This document shows positions 1 through 13,264 of a stretch of 64,000 nucleotides of DNA, piece by piece (positions within the stretch are counted from its first letter, which is position 1; every line of letters begins with the position of its first letter). The DNA lies in assembly GCA_017506865.1 (NCBI GenBank), contig JAFCMP010000158.1, forward strand, positions 1-64,000, written 5' to 3'. Made by a program: the position numbers and the translations under genes. Source of the stretch: Tribonema minus. Its lineage: Eukaryota; Sar; Xanthophyceae; Tribonematales; Tribonemataceae. The notes beneath the pieces were generated by a model. The model was not told the origin of the DNA and made no database searches. It was given only the letters and a program-made list of their open reading frames with translations.

Positions 1-290
1 CACCAGCTTATTGCCAAACCGCAGTGTGAGGTATACCACACCCTGTATCTTCACCAGAGTGTGATTGTCTGCTAGTTCAATAACTGAATGGTCCCCCTTC
101 TCTAGGGGGCAAATTCCCCCAGGAGAAAGCTTCCGGGCCTCTTCTTCTGACATCATGCCAGCTTCAGCACCAGGGTCCAGCAAGGCAATAAAGTCTTGCT
201 CTTTGAACCTGCGCTGACGCTGTACTCGTGCTACCATCCGGCCAAAGCATTCTTTGCTAGGGGCGCCGGTTGGTTGCACTACCGTCTCAC
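1..290 (-). other. Retropepsin-like aspartic protease region of the left element
   Basis: On the minus strand the translation contains QRRFKEQDFIALLDPGAEAG followed by MMSEEEARKLSP. LDPGAE occupies the place of the retropepsin catalytic D-[ST]-G-A loop, preceded by the usual hydrophobic strand. Such proteases cut the retroelement polyprotein. The domain runs off the left edge of the window. It is the best evidence that the neighbouring methyltransferase is part of a retroelement. Confidence 0.6.
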
Positions 291-676
291 CAGGTCTAAC
301 CAAGGCAGGGTCCACGATTGAGTGTAGTGGCTTCCCAATCTCCTCATTAAGCCTAGCTGCGACCGCGCTGGCACGTGGGTTGCCACGCCCTTGTCTGCGC
401 AGAACTTCATGGGGGTCATTGTCAAACGAGGGCTCATCATTGTCATCACTGCCTGTAGGGTGGCAGTGTGACGAATCACCGTCACTGACTGAGCTCTGCA
501 TGAGCGGTGCTTCTTCATCACTGTCACCTTCAAGTTCAACTGTCTCATCTTCAACTGTCTCATCCTGGTACGCGTCAATGGAGGACCAAGGGCCAGTGTT
601 GAGGCCCTCGGCACTAATCATGTCAGGTGTAATACGGTGCTGCCAACTGCAGTGAGCAGCAGTAATGGCAGCAACC

Positions 677-1744
677 CTACCTAACCTGCGCACGAGCTTG
701 CTCTTCACGGGTCTCTGCCACATGCACAATGCCTTCCAAATCCGACTGCATCCATTCAGGGCGGGGTGCAGACGGATCGTGGTCCAAGCGAACGCCTCGA
801 GAGCACGAGACGCTAGCGGGAAGGTCCAGTATGCCAGAGCCTGCAAGGGCAACTGCTAGGTGAAACGCCATGCGGGGCATGACAAGATTCACTAGCCATA
901 ACTTCACGTCTTCGATGGTGGCACTTGTTGGCAGGTCACGTGTAAATGTGAGCAACACAGCCATCTCGCGCAATGACAGCACTCTAGCTTCATGCACAGT
1001 ACCAGCATCGTTGACTGCATCAGGCACATAGTCAGCAAGGTCCACCGGCGGTTTGCCAGGGTTCCTCCGAACAGGGCTTGGCATGCAATCAGTGGCAGCA
1101 TACACGCTTTTGCAACCCTTGGTGCGTGATTTCCAAAAGAAACAACGCTCAGGGCAGCGAAGAACACGGCGGACCGAGACTGGTAATGATGAACGCTGAG
1201 TAGCATTAAGCAAAGCCCCAAACCGCGCCGCAGCGGCGGTAACCCCCGGTCCTGCCTTGACGGCGAGTATGTAAACTCGGCGCCTGTGGCAGGCAATGCT
1301 AAACTCCGAGCCCTTGAGCTTGCTCACGTACAGCAAGTAGCCCGCCTCCAGCAGTATAGCCTCCGCCCGTGCCCAAGCCCTCGAGCTCAGCATGGATACC
1401 ACGTTCTCAATCAAACAGCAACGCAGCCCCGCCCTCACGATGAGCTGCACGGCCTTCTCTGTCACTTCGGCGGCCTCGTCCTCGATGCCCAGTCCATTGG
1501 CATAGTCTGTGCACGGGGGGGAGATCGTGGTGAGATCAGGGTCAAGTTCAACCAGTGCTTTGGTAACTTCAACGCTGCTCAAACATGCATTCAGCACTTG
1601 TGGGGTGCGAGGGTGCAATTCACGGTAGGCCTTACACACGCGGGGACACATGTCAACGGCAGTTGAGTGTTCACCGCAAAGCCAACCACGCTTGCCTGGG
1701 CAAGCCCCTCGTCCCACTCTCCAATGCCACAGCAAACGAGGCAT
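677..1744 (-). CDS. Cytosine-5 DNA methyltransferase domain carried by a retroelement
   Basis: A 355-residue open stretch shows the ordered C5-methyltransferase motifs. ISPPCTDYANGLG is motif IV with the catalytic Pro-Pro-Cys, CLIENVVSM is motif VI (ENV), CHRRRVYILAV is motif VIII, and the C-terminal LREMAVLL with VNLVMPRMAFHLAVAL corresponds to motifs IX-X. The enzyme family transfers methyl from S-adenosylmethionine to carbon 5 of cytosine in DNA. A typical motif I glycine loop is not obvious at the N-terminus of this stretch. The domain sits between gag-like and protease-like sequence on the same strand, so it belongs to the element rather than being a free host gene. Capture of DNMTs by retrotransposons is known from dinoflagellates and a charophyte alga; that this is another case is inference. 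It is treated here as part of a fossil. Confidence 0.75.
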   Translation of the reverse strand: MPRLLWHWRVGRGACPGKRGWLCGEHSTAVDMCPRVCKAYRELHPRTPQVLNACLSSVEVTKALVELDPDLTTISPPCTDYANGLGIEDEAAEVTEKAVQLIVRAGLRCCLIENVVSMLSSRAWARAEAILLEAGYLLYVSKLKGSEFSIACHRRRVYILAVKAGPGVTAAAARFGALLNATQRSSLPVSVRRVLRCPERCFFWKSRTKGCKSVYAATDCMPSPVRRNPGKPPVDLADYVPDAVNDAGTVHEARVLSLREMAVLLTFTRDLPTSATIEDVKLWLVNLVMPRMAFHLAVALAGSGILDLPASVSCSRGVRLDHDPSAPRPEWMQSDLEGIVHVAETREEQARAQVR

Positions 1745-2949
1745 GAGTGATGCGCTGCGCTGCCCCTGTCACTGTTCTGTCAGTGTCAAGGTCCTATGTG
1801 GCAGCAGCAGCAGCACACACAGATGTAGAGTTGCCGTCAGGTGCTGAACCTGACGGCAACGGCTCTGAACGTGGTGTACATCTATCATTGTCAACTTCAA
1901 CTTCAACGTCAACTGCAGCCACGGGTGCCACCTGCATGGGGGCACCGGTGAGCAGTGACGGTGCGAGCAGTGCACACAGCAACCCAGCGGCGCTGACCGC
2001 GCACTGCGTTACGCATGAGCGCGTCAAATAGGTGCCGCACGTCTGTCAGTGCCAGCAAGCGTTCGACGCGGCTCAGAGGCAGCAGCATCTTGGCTGGGTA
2101 CGCGCGCACGCGAGCGTGACTCACCAATGTGCGCGACTCCGTAGTCCGCAAGCTGCTCCATGATTGCACTCCGCTGCGCGACGCTGGCGCTGGGCGCGCG
2201 CGTCATGGCGGCAGCAACGGCCAGCAAGCCATCATAGCTTTCCCTGCCCTGCTCCAAGCCATGCTCAGCCTGGTGCAGCGCGGTAGCCTGCAAGGCGCCG
2301 CAAACATAGCACGAGGGGGGCACGCCCGGCGCGCCAGCAGGGGCGGCGTAATTGACGCCGGGGCTGCGCGGCTGACGCGACCGCAGTGGCGGCGGCGACC
2401 TGCAACTGGAGCGCGGTGACTGCGGCAGCATGTGTGCTCGACTCTCTCTGTTCATACTTCTGGTCACGTGTCGAGCGCGACAGCGACTTAACGCTACAGG
2501 TCTTTGTATCCTGCGACACGCTCGATCCAGCACCACCGCCGTCCTCCAAGGAGGGTTCGTCGTGGACACCGCTGCCTGCCTCTTTCGAGGGTGAAGCAGA
2601 CGACACCGAGCGGGTGGCAGCGACTGCAAATTGCACAGTCACCGCACAGCCCGCTGCAGATGGCTCAACATCTCTCTCTCTCTCTTCGTGCCAATCAGGG
2701 CGCGCAGTCGCTCGGCGTCAGTGACCTGGATATCCATCATGGAATCCAGTTCATCGTCAACCGTGACCGCGCTGTCAGCCCTGACCCGTGTGCGCGGAGG
2801 ACAGTGTCAGACTGCTTCACAGCTGCTGAAAGCCGCGTGAAGTTGAGTCTGACCCCGTGCACCTCCTCAACACATGCGGTATGCACCGTGCGCCGCACGT
2901 GGCTTCGATGCAGGCTGCATTCTCTTCTAAAATTCTGAGTCTGTCCATG

Positions 2950-4479
2950 ACAAGGAACATGTGTTAGACCCCGTTCACACCACGCTATTCCTCTTCTTTC
3001 AGTCAACATCTTTGATCATGCGCTGTGAGCATGGTAATGCAATTGCCAGACATCCCCCTGCTCACAGCACATCAGCAACTGGAATCCGTGTGTATTCTGC
3101 CCATACATATGCCAGCATGGGTCAGCACATCATGACAAGTAACACTTCCACAAGATGTTAAATGCCTGCTTATCTCGCCTCTACCATTTGTGCTGCGCGC
3201 AGTGCTCGAATCTGCAGGTAGCACCGGTTAGAGCGCGCATGAAACAAGCGAGCCTGCCCGCGCCGAGCAGCAAGCTTGATCAAATTCTATCTTTAACGTC
3301 ATGAGTTAGCGCTGCTGTCTTTGCTGAAATGTGGTTTTCTCTCTCGCATGTACGCATGTACGCATCATGCATCCATCTGACAAATAGCTACTGCATTGGA
3401 CGTGCAGTATTACCGGCAGGCCGCGACAGAACCTGGCGGACGAATTGCGGCCGCAAGTCGGTTACACACAACGGTACTAGGAAACAAAGGGTGGGGGGTC
3501 TGTAATCTGTTAACCTCTGATCCCACTTAGGCGTATGCAAGGCAGTGCGCTACACTGTGCATTGATGGCCATCAACCTCATCATCCCGTATTTCAGCGCT
3601 AACAACAGACGTCGTACACAGCGGGTGTGCACCGCCGCGCACGAGCAAACTTATGCGGGCACTCAGGCGGAGGGCTGCCTACACAGACAAAGCACGGCTG
3701 TTGAGTGTTCGCGACTGCGATGACAGCTAACATCGTGTAGCAAAGTGGCGGCAGAGCGTGTCTCGAAGCTGCTACTGCCAGCCATTTCCCCAAGTTTCCT
3801 GAACTTTCTCTGGCCTTCCATGAACGACAATTAGTACGAATAGCTACCAACCACGCCGCGCGTCCGCTAGCGCGAAGGTGCCTACTATTTAATGGAGTGT
3901 TAAGAGCCTAACGTGACGAGATAAGCTTTAATGCGCGTAAGAAGAATTAGCCTCCGCAGCGGTCAGGACGAGCTAGAATGGTTAGCTAGTCGGCTAACGA
4001 GTACGGTGCGTTAGCACGAGTAGCCTACTGAACTATCTGCGGAGCGGAGGGGAGGTAAAGCCTGTCTGTAGGGTGCCATTCTAACAAGCAACTATGTAGG
4101 TGTGTGGTTGTAAAGATCTGTGGCATGCATGGCTTACTTGTCTCTGCAGCCTGGGCTGCTGCTGATGCTGATGATGATGCTGCTGCTGGGGGAGCCATAG
4201 TGGATGTTGTTGGGTGGCTTTAGTCACTGTGCCTCTACTTGGTCTTGTTGCTCCAGCTCTCAGGTTGTGTGCTTATGCAGAGATCTCATAGCCATCAATA
4301 CTTGCAGACCCCCAAACAAGGGGCAAGTCTTAATAGTCATGAAGATCCACTACAGTGCAGCAGTCTCACTTCCTATGCTCTGAGTGTATGTACACAAGAC
4401 TGAACATGAGGGCACTGACACATCATAAGCCTATTAATAATAAGTACTTCAATTATATACATCAAACCGTGTCATCAAC
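2950..4479. other. No recognisable gene
   Basis: About 1.5 kb between the gag-like segment and the copia integrase fragment. Short ORFs only, none with family motifs. It probably contains the leader and LTR of the left element, but I see no convincing TG...CA boundary or primer-binding site. A small repeat CGCATGTA occurs near 3348-3364. A tract of GCTGCTGATGATG type lies near 4150-4190. Confidence 0.3.
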
Positions 4480-4757
4480 ACATCTTGCTACCTCTACAAC
4501 AGGTCCCCCCACTCATCGCTGGACGGACAAACCCCCATCGAAGCACTCTTGGGGACCAAGCCCCGCATCGATCATCTGCGGGTATTCGGCGCAAAGTGTT
4601 TCCTGCACGTCCCCAAGCCACTGCGCACGAAGCTGGACCTTCGCGCCATCGAGTGCGTCTTCGTCGGATACGCCCTCAACAAACCGCAGGGCACCTGTGC
4701 GCCCAGGTGGTCAATGCAACGCATTTCGACCTGTACGACAATTTTACTGGAAGCAAA

Positions 4758-6224
4758 ATGGTGGGGGGGAAACGTGCTGTTGCGAGTCGGGCTGAAGCGT
4801 TTAGCATGTATACCTGGCTGCTCCAGAAGGGACGTTGGGGCTCAGCCTCGGAATGGTTTTACAGCACCGGAGACAGGGACGTGGGGGAAAAGCTTGGTGA
4901 GGTGCTCAGCGCAATGACCTATTTTGTCTCTGCGGAGGTCAAACTGCAGGAGGAGCGACGCCGGGTCAGCACGTGCCTTGCAGAAGCCACACAGGGAGTC
5001 GCTGAGGAGCAGCAGAGAGTCAGCATCCTGCAAGAGCGGCTACAGCAAAGCAAGGAGGCTGAGGCAGCAGCGCAGCAGGAGCTGGAGCGGCAATGCGCTG
5101 CAGATTCAGCAGCGCTTTTGCAGCTGCGGAGTCGGGTGTTGGAGCTGGAGGAGGATGCTGCGAGAATGGCTACAGTGCTGGCGTCGGCGCGCGCAGGCAA
5201 TGGCAACGCGGGCAACAACAGCTGCGCCAACAACAGCGGCGGCGTATGTGCCGCACGCTCAGCGCCGACGGAGGCGCTTCCAACATCGCAAGCATGCAGC
5301 AGTGGCGCGCTTGGCAGCAGCGGCACTGCAGTCGTGCTCTCAGCGCCGACAACGGCAGCGCATGCAGCTGTGCCTGCATGCGACATCGGCGGGCACAACA
5401 GCGGCGGCACCGCAGCTGCGCTTTTGGCCCCGGCGACAGCGGCGCTTTCACCGCTGCGCGCACGCAGTGGCGCGTGTGACAGTGGCGACACTGCGGCCCC
5501 GCTCCCAGCGCGCGGCAGTGGCGGCGGCGACAGTAGCGGCGGCGCGCGCGGCGGCGGCAGCGGCGGCGGCTGCAGCGGCGCACGCGACGGCGGTAGCGGC
5601 GGAGCACGGGGTGGCAGCGGCGGCGCGCGAGGCGGCGCGCTTGGCAGCAGCGGCGGCTCGCGCGGCGGCGGCAGCAGCGGCGGCAGCAGCGGCGCACGCC
5701 GCGGCGGTAGCGGCGGCGCGCGGGGCGGCAGCGGCGGCGCGCGAGGCGGCGGCAGCGGCGCACGCCACCAAGGCGGCGGCGGCGGCGCACGCCACCAGGG
5801 TGGCGACACGGGTGCGGCGAGCTCGGTGACGGCGACGGTGCCGATGCAACAGCGCGCCAGCATCAGCGCTGCGCGGCGCAGCATGCGCGCCACAGGCAGG
5901 AGCTTGGGACGGTTGCTCTCGCGGCGGCAGCAGAAGCGGCGGGAGTACTGGTCGGCGCATACGCCTGAGGAGCAGCAGCGCCTCCGCGACTGGCAGGCGC
6001 GGCATAAGGCGCTGCACAGGCGGCATGCAAGCAAGAAGAGGCGTGGCGATGGCGCGCAGCCGCCAGATGCAGCAGCAGCGGGGAGGCGCGGCGGTGCTTA
6101 CACTAGCACAACATTGTCTCCCACCAGCAATCAGGCTGTGCTTAGCGCATATTGCGCTGACATTTGCGAGACACAGACGGCAGCAGCTCTTTTGTGCGCC
6201 ATGTGTCTTACCAGTGCATCTTGA
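4758..6224 (+). CDS. Unrecognised coiled-coil / Gly-Ser-rich ORF in the terminal module
   Basis: From the ATG at 4758 the ORF is 488 residues. The first 70 residues are mixed alpha-helical (MVGGKRAVASRAEAF...). Residues of about 70-150 form a glutamate/glutamine-rich heptad-like coiled coil (QEERRR, EEQQRVSILQERLQQSKEAE, LRSRVLELEEDAARM). The middle is a long Ala/Ser/Gly low-complexity segment made of GGC/GCG triplets (about 5510-5810). The C-terminus is basic (SRRQQKRREYW, KALHRRHASKKRRGDG). The start of the same ORF recurs twice in the palindrome (start codons at 11956 plus and near 12625 minus). A capsid or nucleic-acid-binding role is conceivable from the coiled coil and basic tail, but I recognise no family. 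It is treated as part of a retroelement fossil. Confidence 0.4.
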   Translation: MVGGKRAVASRAEAFSMYTWLLQKGRWGSASEWFYSTGDRDVGEKLGEVLSAMTYFVSAEVKLQEERRRVSTCLAEATQGVAEEQQRVSILQERLQQSKEAEAAAQQELERQCAADSAALLQLRSRVLELEEDAARMATVLASARAGNGNAGNNSCANNSGGVCAARSAPTEALPTSQACSSGALGSSGTAVVLSAPTTAAHAAVPACDIGGHNSGGTAAALLAPATAALSPLRARSGACDSGDTAAPLPARGSGGGDSSGGARGGGSGGGCSGARDGGSGGARGGSGGARGGALGSSGGSRGGGSSGGSSGARRGGSGGARGGSGGARGGGSGARHQGGGGGARHQGGDTGAASSVTATVPMQQRASISAARRSMRATGRSLGRLLSRRQQKRREYWSAHTPEEQQRLRDWQARHKALHRRHASKKRRGDGAQPPDAAAAGRRGGAYTSTTLSPTSNQAVLSAYCADICETQTAAALLCAMCLTSAS

Positions 6225-6877
6225 GCGGTTTGGCTCATGGGGGCGCTTGTTTGCAGGTTCACTGTTGAGCCTGCACGTTTAGACACCACACCGCTTGCAT
6301 ACCATCAGCAGTGTAGTGTCTGGGGGCGATTGTCGTACAGGTCGAAATGCGTTGCATTGACCACCTGGGCGCACAAACCCACCCGCCCACTGGCACCCTT
6401 TAGTTTTGTTTCAGCTGTACATGCGCACTTCTTTTGCGTGTGTTACACAAACGCTGGGGGGGGGGGATAAGTGCGCAGAGCCAACATGTCGGGGGCGTAT
6501 ATACTATAGTAGTTGTAGAATGGTGGTGCACTTGCTTGCGTTGGTTGCGCAGTGCCAACATGTCGGGGGCGCATATAGCAGCAGAGCCAGTTGCTTGCTC
6601 GTTAGTTTGTCTGTTGCAGCGTTAGGTCATGTGTTGTTTTGCAACAACGTAGTTGCCACTCCAGCCAGACGCGCCACAGTCTTGCTGAGACTTGTTGGTG
6701 GCAGAGGGTTGCTGGTATATGCCATATGCCCGTGTTATTTGAGAGTTTCGTCGGTCATGGATGACAGCCGTGCTTGCATTGCATCTTGTAGCAGTATTGC
6801 ATGTGTAGTGTCTAGGGCGCCTCACATGAGTGCATGGCTTCCGACTTGTGGAGTGAAAGAGCCATGCAGGGGGCGAT
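6225..6877 (+). other. Non-coding part of the terminal module and short internal stretch
   Basis: At 6331-6375 is an exact inverted match to 4696-4742, ending GGGCGCACA, which I take as the end of the LTR-like module. At 6878 the module start TGTAGTGAGGCAACC begins again. The 500 bp between them carry repeated GGGGGCG boxes next to TATATA-like sequence (for example 6493-6508 and 6566-6578) and a G run near 6457-6468. No gene seen. Confidence 0.4.
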
Positions 6878-7020: not shown

Positions 7021-7346
7021 CAGGGTGATATTGCACTTGGGGAGGGCGCTCCGGTCCACCTCCCACGGCACCAGGCAGTGGGCATTTCCGGCTGTTTCAA
7101 GTCAAGGTTGAAACTGGGTCTCGCACACTTTCACCCTCTGTGGTTGGCAAACCACCACAATGGCCCTTAAAAAAAAAAAAAAGAAAAAAAAAAAAAAAAA
7201 AAACATTGTGGTGGTGTGCCAACCACAGAGGGTGAAAGTGTGTGAGACCCAGTCTCAACCTTGACTTGAAACAGCCGGAAATGCCCACTGCCTGGTGCCG
7301 TGGGAGGTGGACCGGAGCGCCCTCCCCAAGTGCAATATCACCCTGG
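7021..7346. repeat. Foldback repeat around an A-rich tract
   Basis: About 130 bp at 7021-7150 (GGGTGATATTGCACTTGG onward) is repeated in inverted orientation at 7205-7346. Between them is a run of about 34 A interrupted by a single G (7168-7203). The same 130-bp unit also occurs at 11392-11530 and 13050-13185, so it is part of the terminal module. Confidence 0.85.
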
Positions 7347-10171
7347 CATAGCGGCATGGAGTGCGTGGCAGCGTTGAGGCTGCTGGCGTTACTGGCTTGT
7401 CAGCTGCGTCACGGGTGGAGGTAACTCGCTTTTCCTGCGGAACGTTTGTAAAAGGGGGTGTTTCCACCACTGCATGCCTCTCTTTCACAAGCTTCAGTCT
7501 ACTGCAGTGGATGTACTTCAACATCACCTGACCCTGATGCGTTGCACGCAAGACATAAGTGTCTAAGCCCGGTATACGCCTCTCTACTACAAAGGGGCCC
7601 AGCCACCGATCTGCCTTCAACTTGCGGCTTAGACCTTTGCGCACAGGCGGATAATGGACTAGTACTGTATCACCGGGTTGGAAGCGCCGCGCATAGCCCT
7701 GCTCCTTTGCTGCTTCTTCGCGCAGCCTCTCCTCCTGCTCTTGAAGCGATGATTGGACCAGGCGGTAGCCCTCCCGTATAGCGTCATGGGAAGCCTCCAG
7801 GTGCTCCGCGGCAGTACGCCACCTGTTGGACAACTTAGACACACGTATATCTCCTAGCATAGCCTCAAACGGCAACAACGGCTCGCGACCGTACAACATG
7901 CGGAAAGGTGACATGCCATAGGTGGTGTTAGTGCAAGCGCGGTGATTGAAGAGGGCCTGCGGGAGCACACGATCCCAGTTGCGTTGATTGTCTTCTACAA
8001 GCATGGACAAAATGTTCACAAGTGAGCCATTGGTGCGCTCAGTGAGACCGTTGCATGCGGGGTGGTAGGGTGAAGTGAAACGTTGCTCAACGCCCAGCAA
8101 TCTGGTCAGCTCTTTCATCAACGCTCCCCTGAATTCTTTCGCATTATCACACAGGAACATCTGCGGGCACCCATGCCTAGGTACTATTTCACTAACGATG
8201 ATGCGCGCTACCGTCTGGGCTGACTTATCAGGGATTGCAAAGGCCTCCGGCCACCTAGTGAGGTAGTCCGTGAAAACCAAAATAAAACGGTTGCCATCGT
8301 CTGATGTTGGCAGAGGACCTACTATATCAAACCCTACCAACTGGAATGCATGTTGCAAATCAATATCTCCAAAGCCATGTACCCTAATTCGTGCATCACG
8401 CCTTGACTTGCGCTTCTGACACGCCATGCAAGAAAGCACCCAATGAAAAACATCCGCATACATGCCTGGCCAAAAGTACCTGCGCCTAACCTTGTAATAG
8501 GTGCGAGCAAAACCACTGTGGCCTCCCCCGATTGCACCGTCATGACACTCAAGCAACACGCGCTCGCGCAGAGCTTTTGGTATAACCAACAAGTCTGTCC
8601 CTGCCCTGTGTGACCTTCCCCCTGCAGCAATATACATCTTTCCTTCGCGCATATAATAACCTGCACGTTCAAAAGCACGCGCATCTTCAACTTCAACTGG
8701 GGTTAGACCATGAGCCCTACTACTGGCTTTTGCTTGGAGGTATTTCACAACCTTGCCAAGCACTGGATCGCTGCCCAAAGAATCTGCTAAGTCACTCGAC
8801 TGAAAAACTGGACGCTGCCGCTTCTTAAACTTTAATGAACCACCTGTTTCTTCGTCACTGACTCGTCTCCATCGTCCAGCGTTGGTTCTCCCAGGTGATC
8901 ATCTTCGCCCTCTGGCCACAATTGCGCCACCGCTGTCATGCTGACCTGCACTCTCGAGCACTGCACTCCACCTGTCTTCTCAACGTCGCTAAAAGCAAGA
9001 ACAGGCACTGCAATTCTTTCTTTGGTGTCAGGTGTGGGCCTCTGCACGCCCCCATGCAGCGAGGTCTGCGCTGCATTCACAGAGAGGTCAACACCTGCAG
9101 ACATCATGACATAAGCACCGTCCCTGATACGAGAGAGAGCATCTGCATTACCATTCTCTTTACCAGGCCTATGTATTATATCCATGTTGTATTCTTGCAG
9201 TTCTGATATGTAACGTTCTTGCCGCTTAGTTCGCGGTTCTGAGCCACCCATGAGATGCGCTAGCGCAGAGTGATCAGTTTGTAGAGTGAACGTGTTGCCA
9301 TTATGCAAAAACTGCCTGAAGTAGTGAACCCCTTCCACGGCCGCTAGCGCTTCCCTATCATAGGTGCCGTAGTTGCGCTCGGCATTTTTTAAAGTCCTAC
9401 TATAATATCCTATGGGATGCTCACCATTGACAGGACAAATTTGCGTCACCACTGCTCCACTTCCATAGTCTGAAGCATCTGTTTGCAATACCAGCTTGAC
9501 TGTACCATTAAGGATCCCTTTCAAGTCTGGATGAGCTAGCACAGGGGACGTTTTAGCGCCTCCTTCAAAACCTGCCAAGTTGCTACACAATCATCAGAAA
9601 GCTCAAACGGCACACCTTTGCGCGTGAGGTTTACCAGGGGCTCCGTGATTGTAGAAAAATTGGAAATGTACTGCCTATAATATGCTGCCATACACAAAAA
9701 GGAACGCACATCGTGGAGGTCAGTGGGAAGTGGTATCTTGTCGATGGCTGCCACTTTTGATGGGTCCACACGTTTACCTCGCGCATCCACTATGTGGCCC
9801 AGAAACTTGACCTCTTTCATTGCGAAATGACACTTTGATGGCTTCAGCTTGATACCAACTGAGAGCAAGCGGCTCAGCACTACCTTCAAATGCTTCATGT
9901 GTTCCTCGAAAGTCTTGCTGAAAACCAAAATATCGTCCACATACACTAATGCATACACCCACAACGCATCATGTCCCATGGCCAACTGCATCAGACGCTG
10001 AAAAGTAGATGGCATATTCATGAGCCCCATGGGTCCAACCTTCCATTGGTAGCACCCCCATTTGGTCTGAAATGCTGTTAGCGGCCTGGATTCTCTATCA
10101 AGTTCAACATGCCAGAATCCAGCTACCGCGTCCATAGAGCTGAACGATGGGCATACCCGGGAGGAGGGCAA
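7255..10171 (-). mobile_element. Ty3/gypsy pol: reverse transcriptase, RNase H, integrase
   Basis: Minus-strand order is RT (10171-9540), RNase H (about 9560-8832), then integrase (8778-7347). The RT shows MDAVAGFWHVELD, TAFQTKWGCYQW, the catalytic YALVYVDDILVFS and PSKCHFAMKEVKFLGHIV. RNase H shows LQTDASDYGSGAVV, YGTYDREALAAVEGV and LQTDHSALAHLM. Integrase has the HHCC finger (HDGAIGGGH...CMACQKRK) and D-D-E residues in FDIVGPL, FLCDNAKEF and GLTERTNGSL. RT-RH-IN order defines Ty3/gypsy. Gag and protease are not visible upstream. Its 3' side runs into an inverted copy of the terminal module near 7346. Confidence 0.9.
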
Positions 10172-11316
10172 GCATACTGGGAGTACCGCGTGCCCGCTGC
10201 GGCAGCTGGTGAGGCCATCAGGCCCTGGACGTGCGTATAGGCGCTAGCACAGTACACGCGAAGTTGAAGTGTCGCGTTGCCTGCAAACGTAATCAGGCCA
10301 TCGCGGTATAGTAGAATTTCCGCAGTGTTCCCCTATTGATTTTGCTGCTGATCACATCAATGACGTAGCAGTAACGATGTGGATGTGTAGCAGGCCACCT
10401 GGGTTCAAGTCCAGTCCTGTGAGGCGATACCTCTGCGTGGTAGGTGGGTCACATGTGGACATACTATCATAGATGAACTGCCAGCCCCATACATAGACCA
10501 AAATGATTCAAGGTCGTCATGGTGCCACCCACTTGAAGTTCAAAAAATTCCCTACCTACTCCAAACTACTCCAACCAAAATTACTGCAGCAGCGAGCAAC
10601 CGTGATTGGGTTCATGGGCGCCTCCCGTCTGCCTGTCATCATCTCCAGTCAGCCAAAAAAATAAAATAAAAAAATAAGGCAGGCTCAGGTGACAGTCCGT
10701 CGTGCCTGAAATTGTTCTCATGGCCAGCTGTGCCGTGGGTCCTCGGAATGGCATTACGGTGGTATTAGATATATATATGCTCCCGTGTGATGCGGCAGTG
10801 GCACCTTAATGTGTGACCCCGTCCGCCTGGTAGTGGCGCTCAGGTGCTCCCATTTTCGGGAGTGATGTTGTGAGGAGGCGCTACCAGATCGGTCGCGAGT
10901 GCCCTGGAGAGGGACTGCTCGTTACGTTGATCACACACCCCTTTAGAGAATAATATCAGTCCCCGAGCAGACAGTGGCGTGGCACGCCTGACTTCCTGGT
11001 TTCTAACAGCGTCTTAAAGAGGGGCCAGCTAACCTGAAATGTGCTGATTGTTGCCTGTTTATCATGTGATAACCTCAACTCCAGGAACTTTATGCCTGTG
11101 AAATCTGCTAAGAAGCTGTTGCGAAATTATGTGACTTGCATGCACGGCGCACAGTGTTGTTATTTGACTGGCCGCTTTTCTTTGATCCATGCGCCTGGGA
11201 GTCGATGGATGGGGGCGTATGTCGTAAAGCGGCCCCCTTATCTTGCTAGTTCAACCTAAAAAGAGGGTTTCCCCTTGGGTCGTACTTCAACTGTGTGCGG
11301 GAACGCTGTAGGGCTT
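10172..11316. other. Non-coding stretch within the gypsy insertion
   Basis: No ORF with recognisable motifs. A tRNA B-box-like word GGGTTCAAGTCC lies at 10401-10412, but there is no cloverleaf around it. A GGGGGCGTATGTCG box near 11212 resembles boxes in the terminal module, so this may be leader or module-related sequence. Confidence 0.3.
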
Positions 11317-13264
11317 AGTAATCAGACACGACTTTAACCTTCAACATGGCACAGCTTCTTCTGCTTCTACCTGTTTAGCCACGCTTGCATATCAGGGTGA
11401 TATTGCACTTGGGGAGGGCGCTCCGGTCCACCTCCCACGGCACCAGGCAGTGGGCATTTCCGGCTGTTTCAAGTCAAGGTTGAGACTGGGTCTCTCACAC
11501 TTTCACCCTCTGTGGTTGGCACACCACCACAATGGCTGATCTCGGCAGGTGCTGACCTGTCCAGTACTATTTCGGATAGTGCTCCAACACACAGCTTTCG
11601 CTGTTTCCGTCGGCACCTCTGCTGCACGCAACCTGAGGTGGCTGGGGTTCAAACTTCTGCACCATTAGCTGTGCCGTCTACTGGCGTCCTTAAGGGGGCA
11701 CTTACAGCACTCGGTGGATCCAGGGGCTTCAGAACCAGCCACACACGGAGTTCCGGTCAGCAGCAGCAGCTGTAAACGGCGACAGCAGAGTTTTCGGGAT
11801 TTCTATAGCTGGGGGCGTGCTCGTCGTAAGGCGCCCTTCGGCTCTCCACTACTTAACAGCAGCAGCAGCTGCTGCTTCAGCATACTGCCACCTTCCTGGC
11901 AGCACGTGCTCATCTACTATTCAGCAGCACCTTGACACCTTTTACTGGAAGCAAAATGGTGGGGGGGAAACGTGCTGTTGCGAGTCGGGCTGAAGCGTTT
12001 AGCATGTATACCTGGCTGCTCCAGAAGGGACGTTGGGGCTCAGCCTCGGAATGGTTTTACAGCACCGGAGACAGGGACGTGGGGGAAAAGCTTGGTGAGG
12101 TGCTCAGCGCAATGACCTATTTTGTCTCTGCGGAGGTCAAACTGCAGGAGGAGCGACGCCGGCTCAGCACGTGCCTTGCAGAAGCCACACAGGGAGTCGC
12201 TGAGGAGCAGCAGAGAGTCAGCATCCTGCAAGAGCGGCTACAGCAAAGCAAGGAGGCTGAGGCAGCAGCGCTGCTGAATCTGCAGCGCATTGCCGCTCCA
12301 GCTCCTGCTGCGCTGCTGCCTCAGCCTCCTTGCTTTGCTGTAGCCGCTCTTGCAGGATGCTGACTCTCTGCTGCTCCTCAGCGACTCCCTGTGTGGCTTC
12401 TGCAAGGCACGTGCTGAGCCGGCGTCGCTCCTCCTGCAGTTTGACCTCCGCAGAGACAAAATAGGTCATTGCGCTGAGCACCTCACCAAGCTTTTCCCCC
12501 ACGTCCCTGTCTCCGGTGCTGTAAAACCATTCCGAGGCTGAGCCCCAACGTCCCTTCTGGAGCAGCCAGGTATACATGCTAAACGCTTCAGCCCGACTCG
12601 CAACAGCACGTTTCCCCCCCACCATTTTGCTTCCAGTAAAAGGTGTTAAGGTGCTGCTGAATAGTAGATGAGCACGTGCTGCCAGGAAGGTGGCAGTATG
12701 CTGAAGCAGCAGCTGCTGCTGCTGTTAAGTAGTGGAGAGCCGAAGGGCGCCTTAGGACGAGCACGCCCCCAGCTATAGAAATCCCGAAAACTCTGCTGTC
12801 GCCGTTTACAGCTGCTGCTGCTGACCGGAGCTCCGTGTGTGGCTGGTTCTGAAGCCCCTGGATCCACCGAGTGCTGTAAGTGGCCCCTTAAGGACGCCAG
12901 TAGACGGCACAGCTAATGGTGCAGAAGTTTGAACCCCAGCCACCTCAGGTTGCGTGCAGCAGAGGTGCCGACGGAAACAGCGAAAGCTGTGTGTTGGAGC
13001 ACTATCCGAAATAGTACTGGACAGGTCAGCACCTGCCGAGATCAGCCATTGTGGTGGTGTGCCAACCACAGAGGGTGAAAGTGTGAGAGACCCAGTCTCA
13101 ACCTTGACTTGAAACAGCCGGAAATGCCCACTGCCTGGTGCCGTGGGAGGTGGACCGGAGCGCCCTCCCCAAGTGCAATATCACCCTGATATGCAAGCGT
13201 GGCTAAACAGGTAGAAGCAGAAGAAGCTGTGCCATGTTGAAGGTTAAAGTCGTGTCTGATTACT
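11317..13264. repeat. Near-perfect 1.95-kb palindrome
   Basis: The left arm 11317-12272 and right arm 12310-13264 are inverted copies of about 955 bp with only a few differences seen (for example around 11699 against 12886). The spacer of about 37 bp is itself derived from the same ORF (around GCTGAATCTGCAGCGC). Each arm carries the terminal-module leader plus the start of the coiled-coil ORF. It is predicted to form a hairpin or cruciform and to be hard to clone or assemble. Confidence 0.9.

Follow-up and report, generated by a model that had tools for sequence, protein, structure and literature searches.

Introduction

Why would a genomic parasite carry a silencing enzyme? The question is raised by the beginning of a 64,000-nucleotide stretch of the genome of Tribonema minus (contig JAFCMP010000158.1, here C158, positions 1 to 64,000 of the forward strand; hereafter the window), where a C5 cytosine methyltransferase (DNMT) sequence lies among the remains of what is very probably a Ty3/gypsy retrotransposon. 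A preliminary description of the locus placed the DNMT between gag-like and retropepsin-like sequence of an LTR element, and suggested that it would provide the element with a silencing or self-marking enzyme of its own.

Results

A dead DNMT-bearing element at the start of the contig

On the minus strand of the window, an open reading frame of 363 amino acids (680-1768) matches the Pfam model PF00145 over residues 33-173 (E 1.9e-8; 34.6 bits, with a cut-off of 22). Sequence reading and alignment locate motif IV with the catalytic cysteine (PPC, 1511-1519), motif VI (ENV, 1400-1408) and motif VIII (RRR, 1277-1285), and reading of the sequence adds a motif X-like stretch, VNLVMPRMAFHLA, at about 841-899, all of them on the minus strand. 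The profile match and the motifs together bear out the earlier reading of a C5-methyltransferase encoded on one strand. The frame is 95-96% identical to copies on contigs C68, C201, C239, C72, C146 and C4. Open copies, however, align only with its residues 32-363; the ~31 residues ahead of these do not share the reading frame of the DNMT. Motifs IV, VI, VIII and X are all contained in that frame. Motif I, by contrast, falls in a stretch at about 1670-1740 (minus strand), recognised by its match to open copies, that is read in another frame, and the window copy should therefore not make an active enzyme. As far as its sequence tells, this particular DNMT should be inactive and exert no silencing or self-marking activity of its own. 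An AlphaFold model of it was unusable (mean pLDDT 35).

What remains of the element around this frame is likewise on the minus strand. A frame cut by the contig start (1-855) comprises a linker and a retropepsin-like part with the motif LLDPGAEAG at about 157-183, for which Pfam gave no match; the stretch from 2180 to 1, covering the DNMT and the protease region, is 94.6% identical to an element on C201. Alignment to the same element identifies remnants of the gag region at 2270-2881, in three pieces (2270-2372, 2436-2489 and 2520-2881; 73.5-81.5% identity to the C201 gag region), and an untranslated leader at 3007-4079. The 5' LTR at 4080-4474 is 94.5% identical to the 3' LTR of C201 over 401 columns, and 4284-3007 is 96.6% identical to the LTR end plus leader of C201. 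Since motif I lies outside the DNMT frame, gag has been reduced to three pieces and the contig begins inside the element, we conclude that the window holds a dead, gag-deleted copy of a DNMT-carrying Ty3/gypsy LTR element, cut by the contig start. The proposed placement of the DNMT between gag-like and retropepsin-like sequence is supported by open relatives, which have kept this order; in the window itself most of gag is lost.

Window positions 1-6397 recur at C84:303843-310225, with 99.94% identity over 1-3268 and 98.9% over 3269-6397, and the two contigs may overlap or represent two haplotypes. Beyond the left edge of the window, C84 continues into a reverse transcriptase (RT) of the same type (C84:301622-302659), which is 98% identical to that of C201 and has one in-frame stop.

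Other retroelement sequence is found nearby. At 4419-6224 on the plus strand, abutting the LTR of the DNMT element at 4474, Gly/Ala/Ser-rich repeats follow a Copia-like integrase fragment; the minus strand has a similar piece at 12221-12724. A second truncated Ty3 fragment, of the type called S below, lies at 7258-10243 (minus strand) and includes RT, RNase H and integrase. Over 195 columns, its RT piece does not differ from that of a DNMT-carrying element on C462 (100% identity).

Open relatives encode the DNMT within a single polyprotein

The open relatives of the window copy, type A, encode a gag-like region, DNMT, a protease-like region, RT, RNase H and integrase in this order, in one open reading frame of about 3,100 amino acids between LTRs. 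Single frames with both DNMT and RT measure 3,087 amino acids on C201 (L034, L036, L161) and 3,104 on C345 (L035, L037). Pfam recognises DNMT, RVT_1, RNase H, H2C2 and rve in the C201 polyprotein, and the pol order RT, RNase H, integrase in C201, C23 and C84. The gag and retropepsin models of Pfam gave no match to the C201 polyprotein at E <= 0.05, and the labels 'gag-like' and 'retropepsin-like' therefore rest on position and short motifs; a Cys/His motif upstream and the motifs D-x-G-A and ILGSDFF were found by eye. At the C-terminus of the C201 frame (L036:1-564) there is a weak match to PTM_DIR17_Tudor (E 8.3e-4), below the Pfam cut-off.

The two LTRs of C345 are identical over their 370 bp, and those of C201 differ at a single site of 6 bp, which separates two identical stretches of 203 and 194 bp. 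Inspection of both elements by eye revealed target duplications of 4 bp (CTTG and TTGC), a common purine tract and a primer site starting with TGG. The DNMT domains of C201, C23, C84, C462, C312, C204, C64 and C507 exceed the PF00145 cut-off, and 15 of 15 aligned element DNMTs retain the motif IV cysteine, ENV and RxR, with motif IV not strictly PPC in all. On these grounds, we have little doubt that the feature in the window derives from a DNMT-bearing Ty3/gypsy element.

DNMT1 combines BAH domains with a catalytic domain. Pfam found no BAH domain in the C201, C23 and C84 polyproteins, and none of the four BAH matches in the genome coincides with any DNMT place among those listed. In two host frames (L069 on C190, L070 on C24), a BAH domain precedes a series of Cys/His motifs, possible EsV-1-7 repeats.

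DNMT copies are numerous and linked to RT

The window DNMT has at least 112 scored matches in the T. minus genome, its own included, and is not single-copy; the order that the preliminary description proposed to look for in other copies recurs in the open relatives. Merging all listed matches yields at least 279 DNMT places, T-type places among them, of which four are apparently not element-borne (C223 twice, C181 and C523). At least 72 further DNMT places, at 50% identity or more, are of type S. Some copies sit on contigs under 20 kb (e.g., C345 and C340), and haplotype or assembly duplicates among them are therefore possible.

We scored linkage where a DNMT lay 0.8-7 kb upstream of an RT on the same strand. 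Among the matches listed, a linked DNMT was found for 75 of 100 type-A RT copies, 43 of 44 of type B, 58 of 62 of type E/F and all 16 of type S, for which DNMT matches listed at 50% identity or more were used. The type-B count draws on 44 of 101 listed rows, the rest being type-A copies or a split piece, and the type-E/F count on 62 of 107; of the rows set aside, 16 are type S, and most of the remainder are fragmentary or broken. Among the 25 listed type-A RT copies that lack a linked DNMT, four lie within 3 kb of the first base of their contig, and one, on C117, does have a DNMT on reading, which is absent from the matches listed. Seen from the other side, RT lies downstream at 173 of 272 DNMT places and at 99 of 272 does not, among the RT matches listed. 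The 16 type-S RT copies, with 36-37% identity, had been considered as a DNMT-free sister group; this was rejected, as a type-S DNMT lies upstream in all of them.

Three positions in the polyprotein

The DNMT is found at three positions: between gag and protease in types A/B (gag-DNMT-protease-RT), between protease and RT in types E/F (protease-DNMT-RT) and S/T (protease-like-DNMT-RT), and between RNase H and integrase in type U (RT-RNase H-DNMT-integrase). Both E copies scanned (L040, L044) have a chromodomain above cut-off at the C-terminus. In the T copy L066, the DNMT lies ahead of RT in broken frames. Type U is known from one copy read (L162, C224:913000-919500), and at least nine of the matches listed share its match pattern. 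Its RT is very distant from the RTs of all other types, and yet its DNMT is no further from those of A/B than are the DNMTs of E/F or S/T.

Phylogeny and relatives outside the genome

Types A/B, E/F and S/T each form a group in the RT tree (14 rows) as well as in the DNMT tree (19 rows), and both trees join A1 with A2 and then A3, with the environmental sequence P0003 beside A1 in the DNMT tree. The agreement implies that the DNMT is old and has been co-inherited within each element lineage. A 36-row tree unites the 14 element DNMTs at 94/87, and a 37-row tree, to which U and S3 were added, unites 16 of them at 85/68, neither value being starred. Besides the element DNMTs, these larger trees comprise the stand-alone frames described below, some database proteins, and loci of bacteria and archaea that the E/F profile had picked up; the trees contain no eukaryotic DNMT1, 3, 4, 5 or 6 rows and neither the host DNMT5 nor the DNMT4-like protein, and S, T and U form long branches. 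An alternative in which E/F were captured separately, together with a rhizobial-type bacterial group, was not rejected (p-AU 0.0995). We favour a single common origin of the element DNMTs, which these alignments suggest and do not prove. The median ratio of DNMT to RT distance is 2.85 within A/B, and 1.19, 1.29 and 0.78 between A/B and E/F, S/T and U, respectively; falling ratios could reflect saturation, or exchange of the DNMT between element lineages.

Beside the element DNMTs, the genome contains a DNMT2-type exon on C523 and three stand-alone DNMT frames of 367-390 amino acids (L001 and L002 on C223, L003 on C181). The stand-alone frames are unlike the element DNMTs and group with bacterial-type DNMTs. 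Among the element, prokaryotic and database rows, the window-type DNMT groups with element DNMTs, away from the DNMT2-type exon and the stand-alone frames, and among these rows it does not fall with a single-copy host gene, the placement that the preliminary description had named as a refutation. Profile searches of the PDB matched the element DNMT to DNMT2, bacterial methyltransferases and DNMT1, and no chain named DNMT3 appeared among 48 at E <= 1, or among 53 at E <= 0.01.

With the DNMT region of one type-A and one type-E copy, polyprotein-length searches of the protein database found no match at E <= 1e-5. A type-A profile matched 14 proteins, of which nine are generic DNMTs with 21-26% identity. 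Four others stem from JGI metagenome contigs (P0001, P0002, P0003 and P0013) and are 58-91% identical to A1 over 11-71% of the query, and one, P0004, is a T. minus protein with 96% identity (416/435) to the gag-DNMT portion of the element on C201. Judged by this similarity, relatives of type-A elements occur in environmental samples. A viral origin was considered and rejected: scans of IMG/VR found no relative for type A (alignment and single sequence), E/F or U, and for type T one weak match of 63 residues. The stand-alone frame of C181 had no match in IMG/VR.

Constraint on the DNMT and loss of the catalytic cysteine in S2

Between subfamilies, the dN/dS of the DNMT is 0.13-0.23 in seven of seven pairs, a rough estimate since dS (0.94-1.77) is near saturation. 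In the two pairs for which they were computable, the values for RT plus RNase H were 0.03 and 0.11, and the DNMT codons are less constrained there. Motif IV reads PPC in most types and APC, SSC, TPC, TLC or TRC elsewhere; most types, whose identity to A1 ranges from 21 to 79%, retain the catalytic cysteine, ENV and RxR.

Subfamily S2 departs from this pattern. At at least 29 places, a common in-frame junction omits the stretch with the catalytic cysteine of motif IV, and despite this loss S2 frames reach up to 3,455 amino acids. One S2 copy (L160, on C33) scores 16.1 bits against PF00145, below the cut-off of 22. Compared with S1 and S3, the remaining domain has a dN/dS of 0.15-0.16, which partly dates from before the loss. 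Since S2 was amplified without the motif IV cysteine stretch, catalysis was not needed in this lineage. No other result speaks as strongly as S2 against the view that the DNMT acts purely by catalysis in all lineages.

The window has a CpG observed/expected ratio of 0.74, with TG and CA in excess. In four target copies, the window's included, transitions affected 7 of 676 CpG sites versus 18 of 3,021 other C/G sites, and no clear CpG decay emerged from the mutation spectrum of element copies.

Discussion

A circulating module?

From an evolutionary perspective, the DNMT may be a module that has circulated among distant Ty3/gypsy lineages of one alga and settled at three sites, and which in S2 would be non-catalytic and probably nucleic-acid-binding. 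The three positions, the single group formed by element DNMTs in the best trees, the common loss in S2 and the distances of type U, which could also stem from saturation, speak for this scenario, which we regard as slightly short of an even bet.

How might the DNMT serve the element?

Because the DNMT is part of a single Gag-Pol, it should enter the particle together with RT, and the substrate at hand would therefore be the new cDNA. We envision that the DNMT would be translated and packaged with RT and integrase, and would methylate the newly made double-stranded cDNA ahead of integration or at that step, such that the insertion would arrive methylated. The host DNMT5 could then maintain the mark made by the element, and new copies might thus resemble resident silent DNA. 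For T. minus, DNMT5, HELLS, CDCA7-like and DNMT4-like proteins have been reported and, in the accessible part of the report, no DNMT1 (PMC10538959). DNMTs of SymbioDIRS elements methylate CG de novo in yeast, and methylation of cDNA was proposed for DIRS elements by the authors of that study (PMC5890265). Methylation of new cDNA by the element's own DNMT is the explanation that we prefer, albeit tentatively and with somewhat more doubt than conviction. The identity of the element and the constraint on its DNMT are supported by LTR pairs, polyproteins in one frame, RT linkage, dN/dS and the agreeing DNMT and RT trees. Weighing against cDNA methylation are the amplification of S2, the departures from the motif IV consensus, the lower constraint on the DNMT than on RT and the lack of clear CpG decay; further points are the missing Pfam gag and protease matches and the sizeable fraction of DNMT places at which no RT follows among those listed.

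Alternatively, the DNMT may have been selected not for DNA methylation but for work on element RNA, or for binding nucleic acids as a component of the particle. Such a role would readily accommodate S2, with its in-frame loss of motif IV at many places, its long frames and the low dN/dS of the remaining domain, part of which predates the loss, and an RNA role has been suggested for the DNMTs of SymbioLINE elements in the accessible text of PMC5890265. The preservation of the catalytic cysteine, ENV and RxR in most types, even at low identity to A1, argues against it, and we consider a binding or RNA role unlikely as a general explanation, while taking it seriously.

Two further scenarios fare less well. 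The DNMT might work in trans on host DNA or on competing elements, silencing rivals or disturbing host control. High copy number and the presence of several DNMT-bearing lineages in one genome would suit such an activity, and the depletion of CpG and excess of TG and CA in the window fit past 5-methylcytosine, as they fit other causes; however, the location within Gag-Pol suggests particle-bound action, and action in trans thus appears improbable to us. Slightly more doubtful still is that the DNMT is a passenger, retained only since its loss would break the reading frame. While many copies are near-identical and motif IV has decayed in some groups, the dN/dS between subfamilies, the catalytic motifs retained in most types and the presence of the DNMT in lineages that otherwise differ in anatomy are at odds with mere carriage. 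Finally, a host DNMT gene beside an unrelated retroelement, a reading that the preliminary description had reserved for copies without flanks or a single-copy gene, is rejected with near certainty: a DNMT2-type exon and three stand-alone frames in the genome would speak for it, but the copies number in the hundreds, are fused in frame to pol, are linked to RT and group with element DNMTs.

Comparison with known DNMT-bearing elements

In T. minus, cytosine methylation of new cDNA, our preferred explanation, can be weighed against RNA work and against mere binding. Three DNMT positions and a cysteine-less subfamily within one genome make the use of a DNMT to a retrotransposon testable, and since the alga is reported to have DNMT5 and, in the accessible part of PMC10538959, to be without DNMT1, maintenance of methylation made by the element can be examined as well. 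With hundreds of related copies in several kinds of elements, the T. minus genome lends itself well as a natural test for what a silencing enzyme brings to a genomic parasite.

DNMT-bearing retrotransposons have been described in dinoflagellates (Symbiodinium) and in a charophyte (Klebsormidium) (PMC5890265), and stramenopiles have been named, in general terms, as one of several groups in which Ty3/Gypsy and DIRS elements encode Dam or Dcm (PMC6338049). Among open-licence PMC papers, with subscription journals and preprints outside the scope, we found no report of such elements in Tribonema. A C-terminal Tudor-type domain, comparable to the weak match in C201, is reported for Gypsy-10_Ec32 of Ectocarpus and for a homolog of it in T. 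minus, and the accessible part of PMC12477816 mentions no DNMT in either. Dam-bearing DIRS elements likewise encode a DNA methylase within a retroelement polyprotein (PMC5890265, PMC6338049), but Dam is an adenine methylase that is structurally unrelated to cytosine DNMTs (PMC5890265).

The traits put forward by de Mendoza et al. (2018), namely an intronless DNMT in frame with RT, a repeated element and purifying selection, are all found in the T. minus elements. The closest parallels come from the accessible part of PMC5890265. KnitGypsy-Dnmt3 of Klebsormidium nitens is likewise an intronless DNMT under purifying selection in the Gypsy polyprotein of an alga; it is, however, a DNMT3 member located in Pol, and its repeats are DIRS-like, whereas the T. 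minus elements have a plain direct LTR pair, reside in a stramenopile, use three polyprotein positions and yield PDB matches without a DNMT3-named chain. SymbioDIRS-Dnmt3 and SymbioLINE-Dnmt of Symbiodinium resemble the T. minus DNMTs in their hundreds of intronless copies, several lineages and conserved catalytic motifs, but there the carriers are DIRS and LINE elements, and here they are Ty3/gypsy elements with integrase. To these known cases T. minus adds a xanthophyte stramenopile host, plain-LTR Ty3 carriers, and hundreds of DNMT copies spread over several element lineages and positions.
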